This document shows, piece by piece, positions 1 through 9,391 of a stretch of 43,516 nt of DNA. Position 1 is the first letter of the stretch. Each line of letters opens with the position of its first letter. Source of the stretch: Komagataeibacter sp. FXV3 (GTDB lineage Bacteria > Pseudomonadota > Alphaproteobacteria > Acetobacterales > Acetobacteraceae). The notes below the pieces were generated by a model that saw nothing but the letters and a program-made list of their open reading frames with translations, searched no databases and had not been told where the DNA came from. The translations under genes and the position numbers were made by a program. Location of the stretch: NCBI RefSeq assembly GCF_015155755.1, contig NZ_VWPI01000164.1:1-43516 (forward strand). The letters run 5' to 3'.

Positions 1-64
1 GTCCAGTTTCCTGTTCCTTCAGGATCCCTATGATCTGCTCTTCCGTAAAGCGACTGCGTTTCAT
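1..64 (-). CDS. IS3-family transposase OrfA, N-terminal part (partial at window edge)
   Basis: Twenty-one codons are visible, from the ATG at 64 down to the window start. The peptide MKRSRFTEEQIIGILKEQE is the helix-turn-helix start of IS3-family OrfA proteins, which bind the element's ends. Only the start is present, so whether OrfB and the frameshift region follow cannot be seen. A related but frameshifted sequence lies at 896-1105, from a different element copy. Confidence 0.7.
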   Translation of the reverse strand, partial: MKRSRFTEEQIIGILKEQETG

Positions 65-119
65 CCGTCCGTATCCTTCTCGATCGGACTCTACTTTAAA
101 ATGGGCACATTTTCGGGGG
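1..119 (-). mobile_element. IS3-family insertion sequence, terminal part only (continues beyond window start)
   Basis: On the minus strand an ATG at 64-62 opens a frame reading MKRSRFTEEQIIGILKEQE, the characteristic N-terminus of IS3-family OrfA transposases, with the gene running off the window edge. The element's end is inferred near 119 because the neighbouring integrase reading frame loses family resemblance there. The outward terminal sequence begins TGCCCCCCGAAAATG on the minus strand. The second terminus is outside the window, so intactness cannot be judged. Confidence 0.75.
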
Positions 120-321
120 GCACGTCAGCAGTCCACGGGCTGCCATGCTGACCAATCGTGTAACGCCGTAGCCTTCCGCCAGAGCGGTAGTGAATGACAT
201 AGACCTTGCGGCCCGATGGCCAGACCCGGACCGCAAAGGCCGGGATGCTGTCATCCCACAGGAAATAATCTTTTGCTTCGGGCGTCGCCGCCGTGACGGT
301 TTTCTTGTTGAGCCGGGCCAT
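118..321 (-). pseudogene. Truncated tyrosine integrase (N-terminal arm-binding domain only)
   Basis: From the ATG at 321 the minus strand reads MARLNKKTVTAATPEAKDYF and continues through FAVRVWPSGRKVYVIHYR and RRYTIGQHGSPWTAD. This is the N-terminal DNA-arm-binding domain (DUF4102 type) of phage- and island-type tyrosine recombinases. Resemblance stops after WTAD, where the IS3 end begins, and the frame closes at 91 after unrelated residues. The core-binding and catalytic domains with the Arg-His-Arg-Tyr residues are absent, so the gene is dead. An upstream ATG at 345 adds eight residues and is less likely. It lies about 170 bp from the tRNA 3' fragment at 497-541, as expected of an island integrase beside its attachment site. 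Confidence 0.8.
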
Positions 322-496
322 TCTCGCCTCCGCCGCAGGAAACACATAGGAAACAGATGAGAGCGCAACCGAGCGTAGTCGGTGAACAAATGACGTATCC
401 CGACGGGGCTATTTTTCAAGGAAAAACAAAGGGTTTTCGTTGTCTGGCGCTATTCTGTCGGCACAGGCGCTGGCCAGCGTAGGCTAAAAAATCTTT

Positions 497-541
497 CTCA
501 TAACCTGAAGGCCGCAGGTTCAAATCCTGCCCCCGCAACCA
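497..541 (+). repeat. 3' half of initiator tRNA-fMet (CAT), attachment-site-like fragment
   Basis: The sequence runs from the anticodon loop CTCATAA through the 3' anticodon stem, variable loop, T-arm (GCAGG TTCAAAT CCTGC) to the acceptor strand CCCCGCA-ACCA. This matches the 3' half of a bacterial initiator tRNA with a CAT anticodon. The 5' half is missing: no TGCGGGG-like strand or D-arm occurs in the preceding 80 bases, and the 5' anticodon-stem strand does not pair. A tRNA 3' fragment next to a truncated integrase and followed by a terminator is the usual scar of an integrative element. Confidence 0.85.
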
Positions 542-553
542 GTCGACATATAG

Positions 554-590
554 AAAACCCCGCTAAACCAATCGGTTGGCGGGGTTTTTC
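554..590 (+). terminator. Rho-independent terminator behind the tRNA fragment
   Basis: AAAACCCCGC at 554-563 pairs with GCGGGGTTTT at 579-588 around a loop of about 15 bases, followed by further T and C residues. It is the strongest canonical terminator in the window. It sits where the terminator of an intact initiator tRNA gene would be, consistent with the fragment being the chromosomal side of an integration site. Confidence 0.75.
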
Positions 591-644
591 TTTGGCTGCA
601 TGGCGGGGTGAAAATAAATATCAACCAAATCAATGACCTAATTT

Positions 645-681
645 CGCAGGTTCAAATCGGAGCGGCCGAGCCGCAACCAAC
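645..681 (+). repeat. Degenerate second copy of the tRNA 3'-end motif
   Basis: CGCAGGTTCAAATC recurs exactly as in the tRNA fragment, followed by 12 unrelated bases instead of 6, then CCGCAACCA. It looks like an old, disrupted attachment-site copy. It cannot fold as a T-arm because the closing strand is changed. Chance is possible but unlikely for two matching blocks in the same order about 130 bp from the first copy. Confidence 0.5.
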
Positions 682-866
682 TGCGATATGCACCGAGTTC
701 GCTAGGAAGAGGTAAGACTCGGCGCGAGCTACGTCTGTTGCGAAATAAGCTCGGGTGGAGCAGGGCTCCGGGTTGCACGGACCGGCAACCAGTTCAGTAC
801 CATAAATTATTATAAAACAATGATTTATACAGGTCTTTGTTGGCCTTGACCTGCCATGGAGGATAG

Positions 867-894
867 AGTCTGTCTATTATTGATAGGACAGACT
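867..894 (+). repeat. Inverted repeat abutting the IS3 OrfA remnant
   Basis: AGTCTGTC-TAT at 867-877 pairs with ATA-G-GACAGACT at 883-894 with one bulged G. It ends one base before the OrfA-like ATG at 896. The preceding stretch 682-866 has no gene I can support. The hairpin may belong to the end of the decayed element or hide its ribosome-binding region. Confidence 0.4.
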
Positions 895-895
895 G

Positions 896-1105
896 ATGAA
901 GCGTAGCCGTTTCAGCACAGAGCAGATCATTGGCATCCTGAACGAACAGGACGCCGGACGCCGGATGTGTGTCGGCGTCATGGCCTCAGCGAAGAGACAT
1001 TTCACAAAAGGAGGGCCAAATATGGCGGGCTGAAGGTATCTGAGGCCAAGCGACTGAAGGCGTTTGGAGGGCAAAACGAGCGGCTCAGCCGTTCTTTGTC
1101 TGCCG
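896..1105 (+). pseudogene. IS3-family transposase OrfA remnant, frameshifted
   Basis: The frame from 896 reads MKRSRFSTEQIIGILNEQDAG and then leaves the family pattern. The continuation RRHGLSEETFHKRRAKYGGL and SEAKRLKAFGGQNERL appears in another frame from about 967. Together they reproduce an IS3-family OrfA (helix-turn-helix then leucine-rich coiled coil), so at least one frameshift has disabled it. It differs in sequence from the OrfA at the window start, so it is a separate insertion. No OrfB homology is recognisable downstream; 1106-1486 holds nothing I can identify. Confidence 0.75.
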
Positions 1106-1486
1106 ACCGTCGGTGCCTATCTCTTTATTGGCAGTCTCCTCTGCGCTTACGGTATATCTGCGACCGTCTCCTCCTGTCGGTTTTTCAGTCGAGATTCATG
1201 GGTTTCCAAGGCTGGCCATAGACTGATGGCATCGTTCTTGGCCGACTCTAATCGATCCCGGTTCGATGGGTTCCGAGTGGAAACGGCTGTTGTTGCGAAT
1301 TCTACTACCGTTTCCTGAGTCGCCGATCAGTCGACGACGTATAATATTCATTCAGCGGGGCATTTCCCAAAAAATATCATCGTTACAGCCGCGGGATATC
1401 GCAATACAGCGAAAATGCGTCGTCGATTCGTCTCTGAAGCAGCCCGGTTGCACGGCAGCGCAAGGTGCGCAAAAGATAATGGCTGA

Positions 1487-1510
1487 AGCCTGACGGGGGG
1501 CAGTCAGGCT
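1487..1510 (+). repeat. 8-bp inverted repeat upstream of the nuclease-helicase module
   Basis: AGCCTGAC at 1487-1494 pairs exactly with GTCAGGCT at 1503-1510 around an 8-base G-rich loop. No T-tract follows, so it is not a clear terminator. It could be an element end or an operator. The rest of 1511-1749 contains no supported gene; open frames starting at 1527 and 1546 lack family resemblance before 1750. Confidence 0.4.
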
Positions 1511-1749
1511 GCCATAGGAGTGATGGATGGGGATGTTGAGATCCGGTGGCGAGCGCAGACAAGGCCCGATCTCCTTCGGGACAGGCCGGTTGTGTAACCG
1601 CGAGGAGATCTTACTTGATCACCTCGGTACGACGTATGTGCCCATTCCATCGACTGTCCTCCGGGGTGGCGTATTCTTCTCATCTAATCCAACTGGCGCT
1701 TTCGACGGTCCAGCTGCCTCCTTCTTTGGAGAGTGGTAGGCAAAAGGCA

Positions 1750-2712
1750 ATGTCTCTACATACCGCTCCGCCCCCGATGGCCGCGCTCCAAGCGTGGTTG
1801 AAGGCTTTGGGGTCGATTGAAAACGAGGGTAACTACGGGCACCTGCTGCTGGAGCAGGTTGGGGTGTGTGACGACGCGCTAGCGGCGGCGCTGCGGCCGT
1901 ATTTCGAATCAGCGCATCTTGATGCACGTGAATATTTCCATCGACAGCTGGGTATCGATCTTCACCCGGATGGAGGCCGCGCTGCGGAAGTCTGTTACCC
2001 CAACTGCCTGCCGGAGACTGCTAAGCGCGGGCTTTTCGGAGAGGTTATGGCCGGGCTTGTAACCGAGGCATATCAAAGTGAATTTGTCGGTAGTCACCAA
2101 TGGATCGTACCAATTTTCCTTTTCCGTAATCATGACGACGTGGAGAATTATCTCTGGGCACTGAAAGCCGATCCGGGCCGGGCACGCGAGATTTACGGGC
2201 GGCATGGCACCGACTTCGTCGGCATTTCGCTCGATGCCGCAGGAGAAGTGGCGCGGATGATCGTAGGCGAGTGTAAATGGCGTCGAAACTTGACGGAATC
2301 GGCCGTCGCTTCGCTTCTGTATGGGCCTAAAGTCGAGAATGAGGAGACCGGAGAGCTGGAGCGGGATGGCAAGGGTATTTGGTACGAGATCAATCGCGAC
2401 TCGCCGATTCCCTGGGGCCTACGACAGCTTCAGAGATTGCTAGAGTTGAAGGACCCCGAGGGCTATGCCTCCGCGATATACTCGATTGATCGCGCGGTGC
2501 TCGGCGACGGCGCAAAACCTGAGCGAACCGACATGGTGCTGATCGTCGGCAATGGTGCGAAACGTCGAGACGAGGGCGATTGCCTGATAGGGTGGGAGGA
2601 ATTGCCGGTAGACTACACGGCTGGTTATGCCTTGCAGGTAGTCGAGGTGATTTTGAAAGGTGGCGAAGAGCTGATCGCGAAGCTGTATTCGTCACTTTGG
2701 AGAGGCACATAA
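1750..2712 (+). CDS. HamA-like PD-(D/E)XK nuclease-type protein of a Hachiman-like defence module
   Basis: A 320-residue cytosolic protein, probably the effector nuclease of a two-gene anti-phage module. The start at 1750 (MSLHTAPPPM) is chosen because the 68 codons before it show no protein-like composition. Candidate catalytic residues follow the PD-(D/E)XK order seen in DUF1837/HamA proteins: E98 in FGEVMAGL, D155 in GTDFVGI, and E174-x-K176 in VGECKW followed by a polar helix. The C-terminal part, including RTDMVLIVGNG and YTAGYALQVVEVIL, looks like a conserved family core. There is no signal peptide or membrane segment. Its stop overlaps the helicase start (TAATG), implying translational coupling. 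Known: in Hachiman, HamA is a nuclease held in check by a helicase partner. Inferred: the same division of labour here. AbpA-type proteins are an alternative family label. Confidence 0.65.
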   Translation: MSLHTAPPPMAALQAWLKALGSIENEGNYGHLLLEQVGVCDDALAAALRPYFESAHLDAREYFHRQLGIDLHPDGGRAAEVCYPNCLPETAKRGLFGEVMAGLVTEAYQSEFVGSHQWIVPIFLFRNHDDVENYLWALKADPGRAREIYGRHGTDFVGISLDAAGEVARMIVGECKWRRNLTESAVASLLYGPKVENEETGELERDGKGIWYEINRDSPIPWGLRQLQRLLELKDPEGYASAIYSIDRAVLGDGAKPERTDMVLIVGNGAKRRDEGDCLIGWEELPVDYTAGYALQVVEVILKGGEELIAKLYSSLWRGT

Positions 2713-5700
2713 TGCCCGCGCGCGATGCGGATCGGTTGGCATTGGCGGAAGGGGTGCGCCAGTCGCTCGGCATAGAGAACGAGCTCACTCGACCACAGGC
2801 GCGTGCTTACGTGCGCTGCCTGCAGACTACTTGGCAGGTTCCGACCATCGTGTGGGGCGAGCGCGAGTCTGCCCAGCAACTGAGCGACGCGCGTCGCCTC
2901 CTGCATTCCGCTCATATTTTCCGATCGATAGAGGGACCGGGGTCAACCCGCGCGGTCGATTGCTTCCGCCGAACTGGCGAGATTCTCGAATGGCTGTCGC
3001 GAGCCGGCGACAATATTCGCAGCATTGTCCCTATAGAGTTGCTGGCGGCTGCGGCCTATCAACTTGGCGGGCTACCAGCGATGGCGACTGGTCTGCTCGA
3101 TCAAGTAGAGTCCGAACACGAGGGTGTGCTACTCTATGCCGCGTTTCTGCAGGCTAATTTCGACCTCGTTTTGCGGCGCGCGATGCTGTTCTGGCGTGCC
3201 AACGGAGATCTCACGACGCGCAATGCTAGCCAACTGCTGCTTGATGCGATGGCAAGCGAAGATCCCGACCGTGGCGTCTCCTGGGGGTTCACAGTCGAAC
3301 TGATTCGGTGCTTGGGGCTAGTGGCAGATTGTCTGCGGCGCGGCGACGATGGGCGACTGAAAATAGCGATGGCGAAGCTCCAGGCGCTCGACGGGATGGC
3401 GGCGCGCACATTCAGCGATGATGCCGCGCTGGTCGTTGGCTTACTGCGTCAGGTGGCGGAGGGGTTCGTTGCCGCGAGCATCTACAAACCGCTACGCGCG
3501 CTCGCAGAGATTCGGCCCGAACGTACGAGCCTACTCTTGTCATATGCGCGCGACCAGTTCAGCCGCGGCCGCGGGATACTGTGGACATCCCAGATTTACG
3601 GGCTCGACCGATTGCTGCGCGAGGCATCCTTTGCCCTCTGCACGCCAACGGGCTCAGGCAAGACGTTGGTCGCCAATATGGCGGTGATCAAGGAACTACT
3701 GCTGCGCGAGCATGATACTCCGCTCAGCCCGCTTGCCCTCTACATTGTTCCCTCGCGTGCTCTTGCCGGCGAGGTTGAGGCAAAATTAAACGCGGAACTC
3801 GGCGGCGAAGTCATCGTCACCGGCCTCTATGGCGGCGCAGACTGGGGCATCACGGACTATTGGCTGACCAGTGAGCGCCCAGTTGTGCTGATCGTCACCG
3901 TCGAGAAGGCAGAGGCGCTCTTACGCTACCTCGGTGCGTTACTGACCGCGCGGCTCGCTTTGCTCATCATCGACGAAGCACATCAGGTTGTGCCTGGAGC
4001 GAGCGAGGAAGTCAGAGTCAGCTTTTCCGATCATAACAATAGGTCGATCCGTCTCGAGATGCTCGTGTCGCGTATCCTATCGCAGCGCCCCGACGTCGTG
4101 CGGATTGCGCTAACGGCAGTCGCTGGCGGCGCATCAGGCCCGGTCGCCAGATGGATCGAGGGCCGTGCCGAAGCGCAGGCGATCGGGGTCCGCTATCGCA
4201 GCACCCGGCAGGTTATCGGTGTTCTGGAGGCGACTCCCGGTGCCCCAGGCCGCATTCTGCTCGACCTCATGAATGGGCGGCGGCTCTATCTGCGCGGCAA
4301 AGAAGACCCGGTCTATCTGCCGCTGCGTTACCAGCCGATGCCGCAACTCAAGGCAACGTGGCGTAACAGCCTGAACCGGTTCAACTGCCTCAATGTGTTA
4401 TGGAACGCGCTTCACCTCGCAGAGGAGAATCAACGGATCCTGATCTCGGTCGCGCAAGAGCCTGAGAAGACGATGCGCTGGTTTAAAGAAGCGCTCGAAC
4501 TCGACACGTGGCAGGCTCTAGTCAGATTTCTGCAGCCTGAGGGTGATCTGCGGGCACGGTACGAGGAAGCCTGCGCCGCGTGCCATGATTATTGCGGACC
4601 GGACTCGTTCGAGTTGTTTCTGCTTGAACGCGGTATCGCGACGAGCCATGGGCAGATGCCGCAGCGCCTGCGCCGGCTCATGGTCGAGATGATCGACAAG
4701 AAGATCTGTCCAATCACTGTCGCAACCGCCACGCTGACGGAGGGTGTCAATCTTCCATTCGATCTGATCTTTCTGACCTCCCTCAAGCGCCGGTCCTGGG
4801 ATGCGGCGAAGGAAGAGTCGATCGTGAAGCGCTTGTCGACATCCGAGTTTCGCAATTTGGCGGGCCGCGCTGGCCGACCGGGCGCGGCCCGTGGGATCGA
4901 GGGTATGACGCTGGTCGCGTTGCCGAAAGCAATCTCCGCTACGGGAAATGGGCAGTTGCAGACACAGCGTCGTCAGATGCGCGAGCGCGCGGAAGATTAC
5001 GACACTTTGCGAAGGCAATTGTTGATCGAGCAACAGGATGCTGACGTGGTAGATAGTCCGCTGGCTCTGCTGCTTGACTGCATCTGGACACAGGCTAACC
5101 GTTTGCTGGGAATCCGGCCGGACGACTTTCTGGACTGGCTGGAAAAGACAGCGCCAGGCGACGTGAGTGACGATGCGGGCACCGGTTCGACCGACAGCCA
5201 CGCGAGGCTGGCTGACGTCATGGATGAACTCGACGGCGTAGTTCTGACGGCGCTCGAAGAGGTAGTCCTCATCGAACAAGCTGACATGACGCCCGCCCGA
5301 GCCGAAGCAGCGTTACGGGCGCTGTGGGCGACGACCTTCACGGCGGTATCAGCCGCGCGAGCAGCGTTGCTTGAAGCCGCCTTCATCCGGCGCGGTGTTG
5401 GCATGATTGAGACGATCTACCCCGATCCAGCCGAGCGTCGACGGCTCTATCAGTACGGTTTCACACCGTTGATTGGTCGGCGGTTCGATGCCGTGGCATC
5501 GAAGATCCGGAGCTTGATCGTAGCGGCCGGGAACTATGGCGACCTTGGGGCAGTGGCCCGGATTGATGTTTTTGAGAATATTGGGACACTCCTTCAGGGC
5601 GATCGGGGCTTCGGATTTCGTGTCCGAGCAACGGATGGCGATCACGCTATCCTCGCTAACTGGCCTCGTCTGCTCGGCTGGTGGATGCACGAGCCTGGTG

Positions 5701-6350
5701 CGCCGGGCCCCGATCCAAAGGATCTGCGCGCATGGCAGCGCTTCGTGGCTGACAATCTCGAGTTTCGCCTGGGCGTAGCAATTGGCGCGGTGGTGGCGGG
5801 AGCCTGGTCGGAGGGCGTGCCAGATGCCACGACTTTGCCCAGTCTCGCCGAATGGAAAGCGACTACTCGTTTACCCTGGTTCGGGTTTTGGGCTCGGGAG
5901 CTCCTACGCTGGGGAACGCATGATCCGTTTGTGGCATTCTGTTTGGCACAGGGACTCGCGCACACCCGAAAGGCGGCGATGGCGCGCCGCGCCGAGTTCG
6001 ATGCGTGGCTGGATGGTGAGATCGGTAATCCTGAGGCGGAGGACCGGATCGACCCGCAGTATTTCGGCAGGTGGCAGAAGAGCCTGCCGCGGCAGGAGCG
6101 ATCAGCGGCCATGGCGGACGAAACCCAGGTGCGATTGACTGGTACCGACGGCGGTCGCGAGCGTTATCCAGTCATTCCGATCGCGCGCGGCCAGGCTACG
6201 GAGTGGCTGGACCCCGCAGGGTTTCAACTTGCGGTATCCGTCGACCCCAACCGGGGCCGCGTAAATCGCTGGCGTAGCGACTACGAACTGCATGTGTCTG
6301 AGGGACGGGCATCGGTCAACCGCGTGTTCCGTCCGGGTAGACGCCCTTAG
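2712..6350 (+). CDS. HamB-like Ski2-type superfamily 2 helicase (defence module)
   Basis: A 1212-residue SF2 helicase. The ATG at 2712 overlaps the previous stop by one base; an in-frame extension to 2580 lies inside the upstream gene and is rejected. Motif I is TPTGSGKT (311-318). Motif II is DEAH (421-424) within LLIIDEAHQV. Motif III-like TAVAGG follows RIAL, motif V is ATATLTEGVNLP (671-682), and motif VI is NLAGRAGRPG (from 715). The wording of V and VI is typical of Ski2/Hel308-like helicases, as in HamB. About 300 residues precede motif I and about 490 follow motif VI; neither flank contains a domain I can name. Expected role: sensing or unwinding abnormal DNA and controlling the partner nuclease. 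DISARM, Zorya or restriction helicases are less likely because no methylase or membrane partner is present. Confidence 0.75.
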   Translation: MPARDADRLALAEGVRQSLGIENELTRPQARAYVRCLQTTWQVPTIVWGERESAQQLSDARRLLHSAHIFRSIEGPGSTRAVDCFRRTGEILEWLSRAGDNIRSIVPIELLAAAAYQLGGLPAMATGLLDQVESEHEGVLLYAAFLQANFDLVLRRAMLFWRANGDLTTRNASQLLLDAMASEDPDRGVSWGFTVELIRCLGLVADCLRRGDDGRLKIAMAKLQALDGMAARTFSDDAALVVGLLRQVAEGFVAASIYKPLRALAEIRPERTSLLLSYARDQFSRGRGILWTSQIYGLDRLLREASFALCTPTGSGKTLVANMAVIKELLLREHDTPLSPLALYIVPSRALAGEVEAKLNAELGGEVIVTGLYGGADWGITDYWLTSERPVVLIVTVEKAEALLRYLGALLTARLALLIIDEAHQVVPGASEEVRVSFSDHNNRSIRLEMLVSRILSQRPDVVRIALTAVAGGASGPVARWIEGRAEAQAIGVRYRSTRQVIGVLEATPGAPGRILLDLMNGRRLYLRGKEDPVYLPLRYQPMPQLKATWRNSLNRFNCLNVLWNALHLAEENQRILISVAQEPEKTMRWFKEALELDTWQALVRFLQPEGDLRARYEEACAACHDYCGPDSFELFLLERGIATSHGQMPQRLRRLMVEMIDKKICPITVATATLTEGVNLPFDLIFLTSLKRRSWDAAKEESIVKRLSTSEFRNLAGRAGRPGAARGIEGMTLVALPKAISATGNGQLQTQRRQMRERAEDYDTLRRQLLIEQQDADVVDSPLALLLDCIWTQANRLLGIRPDDFLDWLEKTAPGDVSDDAGTGSTDSHARLADVMDELDGVVLTALEEVVLIEQADMTPARAEAALRALWATTFTAVSAARAALLEAAFIRRGVGMIETIYPDPAERRRLYQYGFTPLIGRRFDAVASKIRSLIVAAGNYGDLGAVARIDVFENIGTLLQGDRGFGFRVRATDGDHAILANWPRLLGWWMHEPGAPGPDPKDLRAWQRFVADNLEFRLGVAIGAVVAGAWSEGVPDATTLPSLAEWKATTRLPWFGFWARELLRWGTHDPFVAFCLAQGLAHTRKAAMARRAEFDAWLDGEIGNPEAEDRIDPQYFGRWQKSLPRQERSAAMADETQVRLTGTDGGRERYPVIPIARGQATEWLDPAGFQLAVSVDPNRGRVNRWRSDYELHVSEGRASVNRVFRPGRRP

Positions 6351-6551
6351 CGCGTCTCTCCTAGGGGGTGCCCCCGGTACAGCCGCTGCCCACTTTGAGG
6401 GTGCCGCTACGGCAAAAGCATCCGGAAATTCCTTTGATTTTTTCCGGTCGAACGGCGCTTGTCTTTCGAAATAGCTTCGGAAAATCCTTGGCCTGCTGCC
6501 GGTTTCGTGGACACGAAGATAAGATCGTGACCAAGGAACTGAAAATTGGGT
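6351..6551. other. Gap after the helicase; probable end of a decayed IS3 element
   Basis: No gene is supported here. A short G5-TG-C5 palindrome lies at 6364-6375 just after the helicase stop, too tight-looped to call a terminator. The stretch from about 6505 leads directly into an OrfA-like start and probably includes the left end of that IS. Confidence 0.4.
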
Positions 6552-6655
6552 ATGACGAAGCGGAAGTTCAGCCGTGAGTTCAAGATCGAGGCCGTATGGG
6601 GCTGGTGACGGATCGGCGCGTGGCGGTGGCGCCGGCTGCGCGGCTAGGAACCCGA
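6552..6655 (+). pseudogene. IS3-family transposase OrfA remnant (second subgroup), frameshifted
   Basis: The frame from 6552 reads [16 protein letters not shown] and hits a stop. Shifting frame restores [14 protein letters not shown], together matching the [28 protein letters not shown] start of IS3-family OrfA proteins. It is therefore a frameshifted and truncated remnant of a different IS3 subgroup from those near the window start. It ends where cupin-like sequence begins, so it probably marks an insertion or deletion joint. Confidence 0.65.
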
Positions 6656-6660
6656 ACTGC

Positions 6661-6933
6661 CTGACACAGCCATCCGCTTGGCAGACCTTGATCGTCACGG
6701 CTGGATGCGGCTGGGTACAGTGCGAAGGCGGCCCGATTGAGGAAATCCATCCTGGCGATACTGTCTGATTCATACCCGGCGAAAAGCACTGGCATGGCGC
6801 GACAGCGACCACGGCGATGAGCCACATCGTCATCCAGGAAAAGCCGAGCGGTTCTCTGGTCGACTGGTTGGAGTCAGTATGGCACCTGAGCATTCTCTCG
6901 CTTTGTTTTGATTTGATCTGGCCTAGTGGGTAA
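6661..6933 (+). pseudogene. Cupin-domain protein, C-terminal fragment with in-frame stop
   Basis: The frame reads [28 protein letters not shown], then TGA at 6766-6768, then [17 protein letters not shown] and SHIVIQEK. This is the C-terminal half of a small metal-binding cupin; the PGEKHWHGA segment carries the second cupin motif with its metal-binding histidines. The family usually has Trp where the TGA lies, a simple nonsense change. The N-terminal half is missing, replaced by the IS3 remnant. Such cupins often accompany oxidoreductases or carboxymuconolactone decarboxylases in detoxification islands, but no partner survives here. Confidence 0.7.
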
Positions 6934-7037
6934 CGATTCCGATTGGATGCATTCGCGCGCCCTGACAGGATCGGCGTATCAAGCGACGAGGCGAGGTATC
7001 TCGCGGTCTACCAATCGCAAGTATCGTTGGTTGTCTT

Positions 7038-7049
7038 CCCCCGCAACCA
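7038..7049 (+). repeat. 12-bp direct copy of the tRNA-fMet 3' terminus (candidate distal att)
   Basis: CCCCCGCAACCA is identical to positions 530-541 at the end of the tRNA fragment, in the same orientation. Together the two copies bracket the nuclease-helicase module and its flanking debris. No T-arm precedes this copy. A hairpin with a GTAA loop follows 28 bases later, as a terminator does after the first copy. The rest of 6934-7184 holds no supported gene. Confidence 0.5.
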
Positions 7050-7076
7050 TATCTTATACAATATCATCAATATGCT

Positions 7077-7105
7077 AAGCCGTCCGTAAGGGCGGCTTTC
7101 TGCGT
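7077..7105 (+). terminator. Rho-independent terminator-like hairpin
   Basis: AAGCCGTCC at 7077-7085 pairs with GGGCGGCTT at 7090-7098 (nine pairs, one T-G wobble) around a GTAA tetraloop and is followed by TCTGCGTTTG. The stem is strong, the U-tract weak. It may terminate transcription arriving from the left or have belonged to a tRNA gene at the candidate att copy. Confidence 0.55.
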
Positions 7106-7184
7106 TTGAAATGCCCGCGCAGGAAACACAACTGTTTTATGTAACCTGTGACGATATTCTAAATGTCACGTGTGATGGAACCGG

Positions 7185-7545
7185 TGGAGTCGTGTGCGAT
7201 GGTCAGGGCCGACCTGTCCGGCTTCCTCTGACTGCCGGACAGGTCAGCGCCTTCAAGGGTATAGACGTGCTTCTGGCAGATCTCCTCGAGGGAACAGAAG
7301 AATTTGTCGGGGACAGAGGCTATGACAGCAACCGGATCCGGTTACTGATTGCAAAACGCAATATCACAGCTTGTGTTCCTCAAAAGAAAAACCGGAAATC
7401 AAAGCCGCCTTACAACTGGCACCTGTATAAAAAGCGCCACCTCATCGAAAACATGTTCGCAAAACTAAAAGACTGGCGACATGTTGCGACCAGATATGAT
7501 CGCTGCGTCCATACATTTATATCCGCAATCCCTTTAAGAACCGTA
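7185..7545 (+). pseudogene. IS5-family (IS427-like) transposase fragment
   Basis: Within an open frame at 7111-7677, the internal part reads VVCDGQGRPVRLPLTAGQVS, then GDRGYDSNRIR, KKRHLIENMFAKLKDWRHVA and TRYDRCVHTFISAI. This is the C-terminal DDE region of IS5-family transposases. It includes the D of GDRGYDS and the E of LIENMF, the last catalytic acidic residue. The N-terminal part with the first D is absent. Residues before about 7185 and after about 7545 do not fit the family, so both ends are truncated or rearranged and the element cannot move by itself. Confidence 0.8.
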
Positions 7546-7712
7546 ACTGAACTGTTCCCCAGACTCGTACCTGCCCCGATTGTCTCCTTCCGCATGCGGC
7601 TTTTGGAGACAGCCCAGATCTTCAACAGAGAATTAATATTGCATGTTGATCAGAAGTTACTTTTGATTGCCGATTGACAATGAACGTCTGACGAAGGTGC
7701 GCGGCATCGGCT

Positions 7713-8852
7713 TCAGGAGTGTTTTTTCGATACCTTGTCAATAAAGGCACGCAGGTCGGCCAACATCAGGTCCGGCTCTTCCAGAGCAGCGAAATGGCCG
7801 CCTCTGGTCATGTTTGTCCAGTGTACGATATTGTAGGTCTTCTCCGCAAACGAGCGTGGCGTTGGCAGGAACACGGGATCTGGAAACGCCGCGACACCGG
7901 TCGGCACACCTATGTGCGTGCCGGCAGGAAACCGATCCGAACCTTCCAGGCGCCTGCCGAGGTAGATCCATGTCGCCGTGACGACTGCCGAAGGTGCAAT
8001 ATAAAGCATGATGTTGGTAATAAGTTCATCCTCCGAGAACCTGCTCCAGATATCCGGACTGCCATCGGAGAATGTCGGGAGGTCCGCCCACTTACCAAAT
8101 TTTTCAAGTATCCATCCAGCCGTACCGACCACGCTATTGGCCATAGCAACGCCCAATGTCTGCGGGCGTGTTGACTGCTCGTGACTGTAGCCGGTCTCCC
8201 GGTCGAGGATCGCGGCACGGCGGGAGAACAGATCCTTTTCCTCAAGGGTTGTCGGGATCGTGTCATCGGCGAAGACGCTCATCGTGTTGACGTGGATGCC
8301 GAACAGCGCTGCGGGTTGTGTACAGGCCATCCAGCTTGCAATGTGTGCGCCCCAGTCGCCACCCTGAACGACATAGCGCGCCTGACCGAACAGACGAACC
8401 ATCAGTCCGTGCATAAGTTCGGCTGCCCGGCGCGGGCCTATGACACCGGTAATCGGATTGGAAAAGGCAAAGCCGGGGAGCGAGGGTACGACAACATCCT
8501 GTCCGTCTGCAGCCAAGGGATGCAGTAAACGCTCAAATTCAAGATACGAGCCTGGCCAGCCGTGGAGAAGAAGCACGGGTGGCTTGGAACCGTTACCTTT
8601 TATATGAACGAAGTGGAGATGCTCACCTTCGATATCGGTCGTAAAGTTGGGCAATTCGTTAAGGCGCTGTTCGACTGCACGCCAGTCATAGCGATTTTTC
8701 CAATAGGTGATGAGGCGCTTCAGGTCATCGATCCCGACGCCCGCTGACCAGCCGCCCGCATCCGGAAGCTGGCTCCCGTCATAGGCTTCGATATTGGCCC
8801 TGATCGTAGCGAGCCGTTCGTCAGGTATGGCGATTGTATAGGGCGAGATCAT
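7713..8852 (-). CDS. Epoxide hydrolase, alpha/beta-hydrolase fold with EHN domain
   Basis: A 379-residue soluble enzyme expected to open epoxides to diols through an Asp-ester intermediate. The N-terminus (PYTIAIPDERLATIRANI, residues 4-21, then W35 and W51-Y55) is the EHN domain. The oxyanion-hole motif HGWPG is at 97-101, the nucleophile D166 sits in GGDWGAH, and the general base H353 in RGGHFAALEEP. The start at 8852 has GGAG six bases upstream and matches the usual family N-terminus; an in-frame ATG at 8891 adds 13 residues and is an alternative. It is monocistronic, with IS5 debris behind its stop and a 500-bp gap before the next gene. The natural substrate cannot be told; detoxification of xenobiotic or lipid epoxides is the usual proposal. 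Confidence 0.85.
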   Translation of the reverse strand: MISPYTIAIPDERLATIRANIEAYDGSQLPDAGGWSAGVGIDDLKRLITYWKNRYDWRAVEQRLNELPNFTTDIEGEHLHFVHIKGNGSKPPVLLLHGWPGSYLEFERLLHPLAADGQDVVVPSLPGFAFSNPITGVIGPRRAAELMHGLMVRLFGQARYVVQGGDWGAHIASWMACTQPAALFGIHVNTMSVFADDTIPTTLEEKDLFSRRAAILDRETGYSHEQSTRPQTLGVAMANSVVGTAGWILEKFGKWADLPTFSDGSPDIWSRFSEDELITNIMLYIAPSAVVTATWIYLGRRLEGSDRFPAGTHIGVPTGVAAFPDPVFLPTPRSFAEKTYNIVHWTNMTRGGHFAALEEPDLMLADLRAFIDKVSKKHS

Positions 8853-8891
8853 GATCTTCTCCGCGTAGGGCGTCGCCTCATGACTTTCCAA

Positions 8892-9391
8892 ATTGGTTAT
8901 GTTGATGAAGCGTTACACTTTAACTACGCGCGTTCGGCATGGTTCATGAACTCCGCAGCACAGTCCGGTCCGTCACTTGCGCAGGCATCTGGCAGCGACG
9001 GAGCGAACCGCGCAGAAAGGTATGGGTAGCCGCACTTGAACGGTTTGGGGTGCGTGCGGATATTGGCGGACCATTCTCGGTCTGCTGTATGGGGCGTTTT
9101 TTTACGGATACATGGATCCAGCAGATTGTGGATCAGATGGTCCTGTAAATGGTGTCGTATTTTCGTGCGTAGGCCTTTTCCATTGTTGATACTGGCGGAT
9201 AGGCAAGTCTGTCGATGGACGGGATCATCAGGTGGTCCCCCTTATCCGGGGCGCATCAAGCCATGCTGGCTTTTTCCGGAACGTAAACATCATGACTGGA
9301 TAGGGAATGAACCGCATATGGCGTGGCTTGTCGTTCTGGCAGCGCATGCTAGCGTCTGTCTGAACCGGATATTGCAGGGACAAACGGAATA
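8892..9391. other. 500-bp intergenic region, no gene recognised
   Basis: It lies between divergent starts (epoxide hydrolase on minus, symporter on plus). Short open frames at 8939-9148 and 9036-9392 show no family resemblance. It presumably carries both promoters. I see no strong palindrome or terminator. Confidence 0.5.

Follow-up and report, generated by a model that had tools for sequence, protein, structure and literature searches.

A probable divergent Hachiman HamA-HamB gene pair among mobile-element remnants in Komagataeibacter sp. FXV3

The window (the whole 43,516-nucleotide stretch of Komagataeibacter sp. FXV3 DNA analysed here) carries near its start two overlapping genes set among fragments of mobile elements, and the question raised by this locus is whether the pair is a working defense system and, if so, of which type. 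In Hachiman, a bacterial antivirus system, a helicase scans DNA and turns on a nuclease that shreds DNA. The homology of both genes, their catalytic residues, the conserved gene order and coupling, and purifying selection indicate that the pair is very probably a divergent Hachiman system acting by the Hachiman mechanism.

The gene pair and its flanks

The pair and the sequence around it contain the following features, in window coordinates:

91..345, minus strand: integrase arm DNA-binding domain fragment (Pfam 24.2 bits, E 3.8e-5; cut-off 27)
542..7050, no strand assigned: stretch carrying the hamAB pair and near-identical in Gluconobacter morbifer (99.88% identity; recently transferred DNA)
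967..1221, plus strand: transposase fragment (HTH_Tnp_1; Pfam scan)
1750..2712, plus strand: hamA-like gene, 320 aa, predicted PD-(D/E)XK effector nuclease
2712..6350, plus strand: hamB-like gene, 1212 aa, Ski2-like SF2 helicase and predicted DNA-damage sensor
2712..3566, plus strand: HamB residues 1-285, NAH-like N-terminal helical region (the HamA-binding region in ECOR31 HamB)
7111..7677, plus strand: DDE (IS5-type) transposase remnant (Pfam scan and sequence comparison)
7713..8891, minus strand: epoxide hydrolase gene, full length, just past the DDE transposase remnant

The hamA stop codon TAA (2710-2712) and the hamB start codon ATG (2712-2714) have one base in common, giving TAATG. An open reading frame check returned exactly the coordinates, lengths and overlap given in an earlier, sequence-only reading of this DNA. 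That reading saw no other undamaged gene in the first 7 kb, which is fair for the 14 flanking ORFs scanned against Pfam, because fragments and remnants flank the pair and the epoxide hydrolase gene starts only at 7713. Ten other small flanking ORFs had no Pfam family or a weak, sub-threshold PIN match, the latter in the ORF at 6102-6893 (minus strand), which partly overlaps the end of hamB on the opposite strand. Scans for promoters and terminators yielded no more than shuffled sequence did. The DNA of the epoxide hydrolase gene (7713-8891, minus strand) is 89.6% identical to its counterpart on a Komagataeibacter oboediens plasmid.

Homology of the two proteins to HamA and HamB

The window HamB possesses the Ski2-like helicase core of Hachiman. 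Its motifs TPTGSGKT (311-318), DEAH (421-424), TLTEGVN (674-680) and GRAGRPG (718-724) are invariant at all positions except T676 in a 17-sequence alignment, confirming the complete motifs I, II, V and VI that had been read in the 1212-residue protein. The PADLOC HamB model (HamB1) matches residues 79-1035 at 5.1e-42. When the single protein was searched against the PDB, Hel308 (3.6e-15) ranked just above HamB 8vx9_B (3.6e-14). With the 17-sequence profile, 8vx9_B ranked first (E 3.8e-43, residues 59-1035), and Brr2-, Ski2- and Hel308-type helicases ranked below it with their best stretches in the helicase core; among the 31 PDB chains listed, only 8vx9_B has a best stretch that extends N-terminal of this core. 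HamB D421 falls on ECOR31 D431 in the alignment to 8vx9_B.

The N-terminal region was also compared separately. A profile of HamB residues 1-285 (18 sequences) placed HamB top among 177,635 PDB sequences (E 0.012; next match, 0.17), and hhalign matched the region to three ECOR31-type HamBs at 96.6% probability (E 5.9e-10, 211 columns), which themselves match residues 4-298 of the solved HamB at 3.3e-97. The NAH domain of ECOR31 HamB binds HamA, and close Ski2 relatives are described in PMC12278908 as lacking NAH. By homology, the window HamB has this domain, and its binding of HamA is putative. The 18 family members group as a single clade (100/100) in a tree built from 26 HamBs; branches outside the family are long, and the tree serves only for the coherence of the family and the placement of a fusion protein from Calothrix.

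HamA residues E98, D155, E174 and K176, exactly those picked out by the sequence-only reading, are present in the window protein and invariant in all 21 aligned family members, and G97-E98, G153-x-D155 and E174-x-K176 are invariant across 8 family members aligned with 3 ECOR31-type HamAs. The best PDB match of the HamA family profile is HamA 8vx9_A, at an E value (0.16) that alone is not significant; the alignment places D155 on ECOR31 D119 and E174-x-K176 on E138-x-K140. The ECOR31 HamA E138A,K140A protein is the published nuclease-deficient mutant (PMC12278908), and D155, E174 and K176 conform to the HamA catalytic D ... GExK motif named in PMC12799240. The HamA of the pair is a predicted PD-(D/E)XK nuclease.

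The HamA likeness proposed in the sequence-only reading was borne out by PADLOC and hhalign profile comparisons, while Pfam PF08878 (HamA/DUF1837) was silent. PADLOC models PDLC00159 and PDLC00155 match 19/21 (best, 4e-5) and 16/21 (best, 9.1e-6) family members, respectively, with a limit of E 1; the window HamA by itself gave an E value of 0.064 against PADLOC HamA, short of significance. PF08878 matched none of the 21 family members at E values up to 1, and a PF08878 search of the window's own genome recovered nothing, hamA included, whereas two ECOR31-type HamAs exceed its cut-off of 25 with 60.3 and 34.5 bits. The 21-member HamA profile aligned by hhalign to three ECOR31-type HamAs at 97% probability (E 1.2e-10, score 78.0, 250 columns), and this three-protein set matches the solved ECOR31 HamA at 1.5e-89. 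In controls, 60 column shuffles of the set reached at most 21.8 (mean, 14.6), the reversed set scored 19.4, and scores of 12.1 to 19.1 came from five proteins with other nuclease annotations, one of which was a cut fragment. Without its three divergent members the family scored 61.3, and these three alone scored 48.5; comparisons with single ECOR31-type proteins gave 67.5 and 41.7. Six other PF08878 members, not of the ECOR31 type, were not significantly similar to the HamA family (hhalign E 0.21), and hhalign of these six against the ECOR31-type set itself gave a probability of only 53% over 89 columns. A single-sequence PDB search with HamA returned only chance matches to proteasome subunits. 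Homology of HamA to Hachiman was therefore found by sensitive profile comparison and not at the Pfam cut-off.

HamA/HamB, named by the sequence-only reading as the closest architecture, is also the closest here, and its suggestion that the proteins could be a distinct subtype is supported. ECOR31 Hachiman HamAB (PDB 8VX9; PMC12278908) has the same hamA-hamB order and GE...GxD...ExK pattern, and an NAH-like domain, a Ski2-like core and DExH, V and VI motifs are common to both systems. Nevertheless, the window HamA is only 20-23% identical to the three ECOR31-type HamAs, and the PADLOC HamB model gives the window HamB 142 bits versus 1508 bits for one ECOR31-type HamB. Judged by eye, about 16 extra residues (~131-146) lie inside the window HamA segment matching ECOR31 HamA 102-117, which is reported as an extended loop that contacts HamB and through which HamA docks onto it (PMC12278908). 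A second insertion (~192-212, also by eye) immediately precedes the part aligned with ECOR31 HamA 159-199, reported in the same paper to be another HamB interface region, and is absent from the three divergent family members.

Other helicase-nuclease systems differ from the pair in gene content or order. Hachiman type II, described in PMC8565338 as hamABC with a DUF3223 HamC, shares hamA and hamB with the window pair and was provisionally rejected, as no HamC was seen: Pfam found no DUF3223 in the 14 flanking ORFs, and the DUF3223 model had no match in the window's genome, although the 14 control genomes gave it no match either. The 15 annotated plasmid neighbourhoods also list no DUF3223, in a gene table that is incomplete. 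Hna resembles the pair in combining an SF2 helicase, a PD-(D/E)XK nuclease and abortive infection, but it is one protein with the helicase first and the nuclease last (PMC13381803). It was rejected because this is the opposite order to the window pair, whose nuclease gene leads and whose helicase is HamB-type; the Calothrix fusion, unlike Hna, also has the nuclease first. AbpAB likewise joins a Ski2-like helicase to a HamA-like partner, and AbpA is described in PMC12278908 as an inactive HamA domain with an N-terminal Cap4-like nuclease; the window HamA, unlike AbpA, has intact catalytic residues and no extra recognised domain. Elsewhere, L052:2742-6699 and L053:3427-7493 encode HamB-like helicases, each with a small upstream protein. 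In hhalign comparisons with the HamA family, the L052 protein scored 23.8 (E 0.016), just above shuffles, and the L053 protein 18.3 (E 0.1), within shuffles; both are possibly other divergent HamA types.

Distribution, transfer and integrity of the branch

The HamAB branch is rare. Matches at E values up to 1e-5 were found in 24 of 72,556 plasmid records, 23 with alphaproteobacterial genus names and 1 with that of a cyanobacterium (Calothrix). HamA was found in 1/289 genomes of the host's class by single-protein search, and in 2/398 genomes of its phylum and 4/299 of its taxonomic family by profile search, the window's genome being counted each time. A phage origin was rejected: neither protein was matched in 50,697 phage records (E up to 0.01 for HamA and 1e-5 for HamB), only two viral contigs had a match, a viral scan with Leisingera HamA had none, and no PHROG was found for HamA at E values up to 0.01.

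The 26 loci examined include 16 of the 24 plasmid matches; the other 8, a Nitrobacter match and a weak match (G984) fall outside this set. In each of the 25 two-gene loci, hamA is immediately followed on the same strand by a hamB that is either whole or fragmented; the remaining locus is a fusion. Eighteen pairs appear intact by annotation or open frames, the fusion is open, six loci are disrupted (L003, L009, L015, L020, L057 and L058), and one (L059) is cut by a contig end. In L057, from a genome of the same genus, only the second half of hamA remains and the adjacent hamB is intact; in the other disrupted copies, hamB carries internal deletions, a broken frame or an IS. These copies suggest that the system is often lost. 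Toxin-antitoxin, abortive-infection or nuclease genes occur in 12 of 15 annotated plasmid neighbourhoods, a count that has no matched control neighbourhoods beside it; L009, L010 and L011 have no such genes, and L013 is unannotated.

Over 6.5 kb, window positions 542-7050 share 99.88% identity with L002:1-6510, where a Gluconobacter morbifer contig begins. The 8 differing positions comprise 7 substitutions and one single-base indel; four substitutions lie in hamB, none lies in hamA, and the indel is outside both genes. The G. morbifer sequence adjoining the shared stretch has only 66-81% identity matches in the window's genome, and the pair therefore moved recently between these bacteria. Pieces of window positions 1-9000 match Komagataeibacter, Acetobacter and Gluconobacter plasmids, the most-matched plasmid genera being Azospirillum, Rhizobium and Ensifer. 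Between the window pair and five relatives, dN is 0.10-0.31 and dS is saturated or >1.3; hamA and hamB are therefore under purifying selection, in line with the selection for function suggested by the sequence-only reading, although this speaks for the family and says little on the very recent past of the window copy.

These data bear on two other explanations of the locus. The pair could be a Hel308/Ski2-type repair or plasmid-maintenance helicase with an unrelated, recruited nuclease rather than Hachiman, as the HamB core also matches Hel308 and Brr2, with Hel308 just above HamB in the single-protein PDB search, HamA is missed by PF08878 and relatives occur on 24 plasmid records. This is very unlikely, since the N-terminal region matches HamB while the other listed PDB matches have their best stretches only in the helicase core, and since the similarity of HamA to the ECOR31 type runs the full length of the protein in a comparison backed by controls. 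A second alternative, that the hamAB copy of the window has lost its function and persists as a remnant among mobile-element debris, is somewhat less improbable, but still quite unlikely: integrase and transposase fragments flank it and 6/26 loci are disrupted, yet both reading frames run open over their full length and no motif is missing, the G. morbifer copy has four hamB substitutions with no indel in either gene and no change in hamA, and the family combines low dN with saturated dS.

Predicted mode of action and implications

As a divergent Hachiman system, the pair would work by steps known from ECOR31, from which complex formation, damage sensing, DNA degradation and abortive infection are extrapolated. 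HamB, a Ski2/Hel308-like DNA helicase, would keep HamA bound by way of the N-terminal helical domain of the helicase. Damage or phage replication intermediates would supply a free single-stranded DNA end; once this enters the helicase, ATP hydrolysis would shift the N-terminal domain so that HamA is freed or activated. HamA, as a PD-(D/E)XK DNase with residues E98, D155, E174 and K176, would degrade both phage and host DNA, and the infection would be aborted.

Calothrix sp. PCC 6303 plasmid pCAL6303.01 (L010:8965-13668) encodes HamA and HamB as one 1567-aa chain, with GE, GxD and ExK in HamA, an ~45-residue linker and a full HamB in which the helicase motifs are intact. The fusion groups with two-gene family members in the HamB tree (99/97). 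No further HamA-HamB fusion was found in 366 genomes of the host's class or in the plasmid collection, and the listings from literature searches, which covered few subscription papers, contained no mention of such a fusion or of this branch. In PMC12278908 (Tuck et al.), the separate HamA and HamB subunits are said to be possibly linked to abortive infection, and cis versus trans cleavage is a stated open question.

The fusion suggests a variant of Hachiman in which the nuclease acts in cis, while bound to HamB, and is not released. An open chain with its catalytic and helicase motifs intact that groups with two-gene members is consistent with this variant, but only a single fusion was seen, the chain might undergo post-translational cleavage, and ATP-dependent disassembly of ECOR31 HamAB is reported (PMC12278908); overall, the variant appears unlikely. 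A broader and equally speculative proposal, to which we would give only a little credence, is that this branch, unlike the ECOR31 model, needs no release of HamA: a tethered nuclease would cut in cis, with the Calothrix protein as the extreme of such tethering and the docking insertions of two-gene members serving to keep HamA bound.

Within the Hachiman reading, the divergence of this branch also affects how it is annotated. Its HamA is labelled 'hypothetical protein' in 10 of the 24 plasmid records and 'aminotransferase' in 9, a name for which no support was seen. As HamA is missed by Pfam, the window copy is sub-significant in PADLOC and the plasmid records carry such labels, annotation can miss the system or show a lone helicase. 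The branch extends the sequence diversity of HamA and offers comparison partners for the HamA-HamB interface, and the Calothrix fusion makes the question of cis or trans cleavage, as posed in PMC12278908, directly testable.
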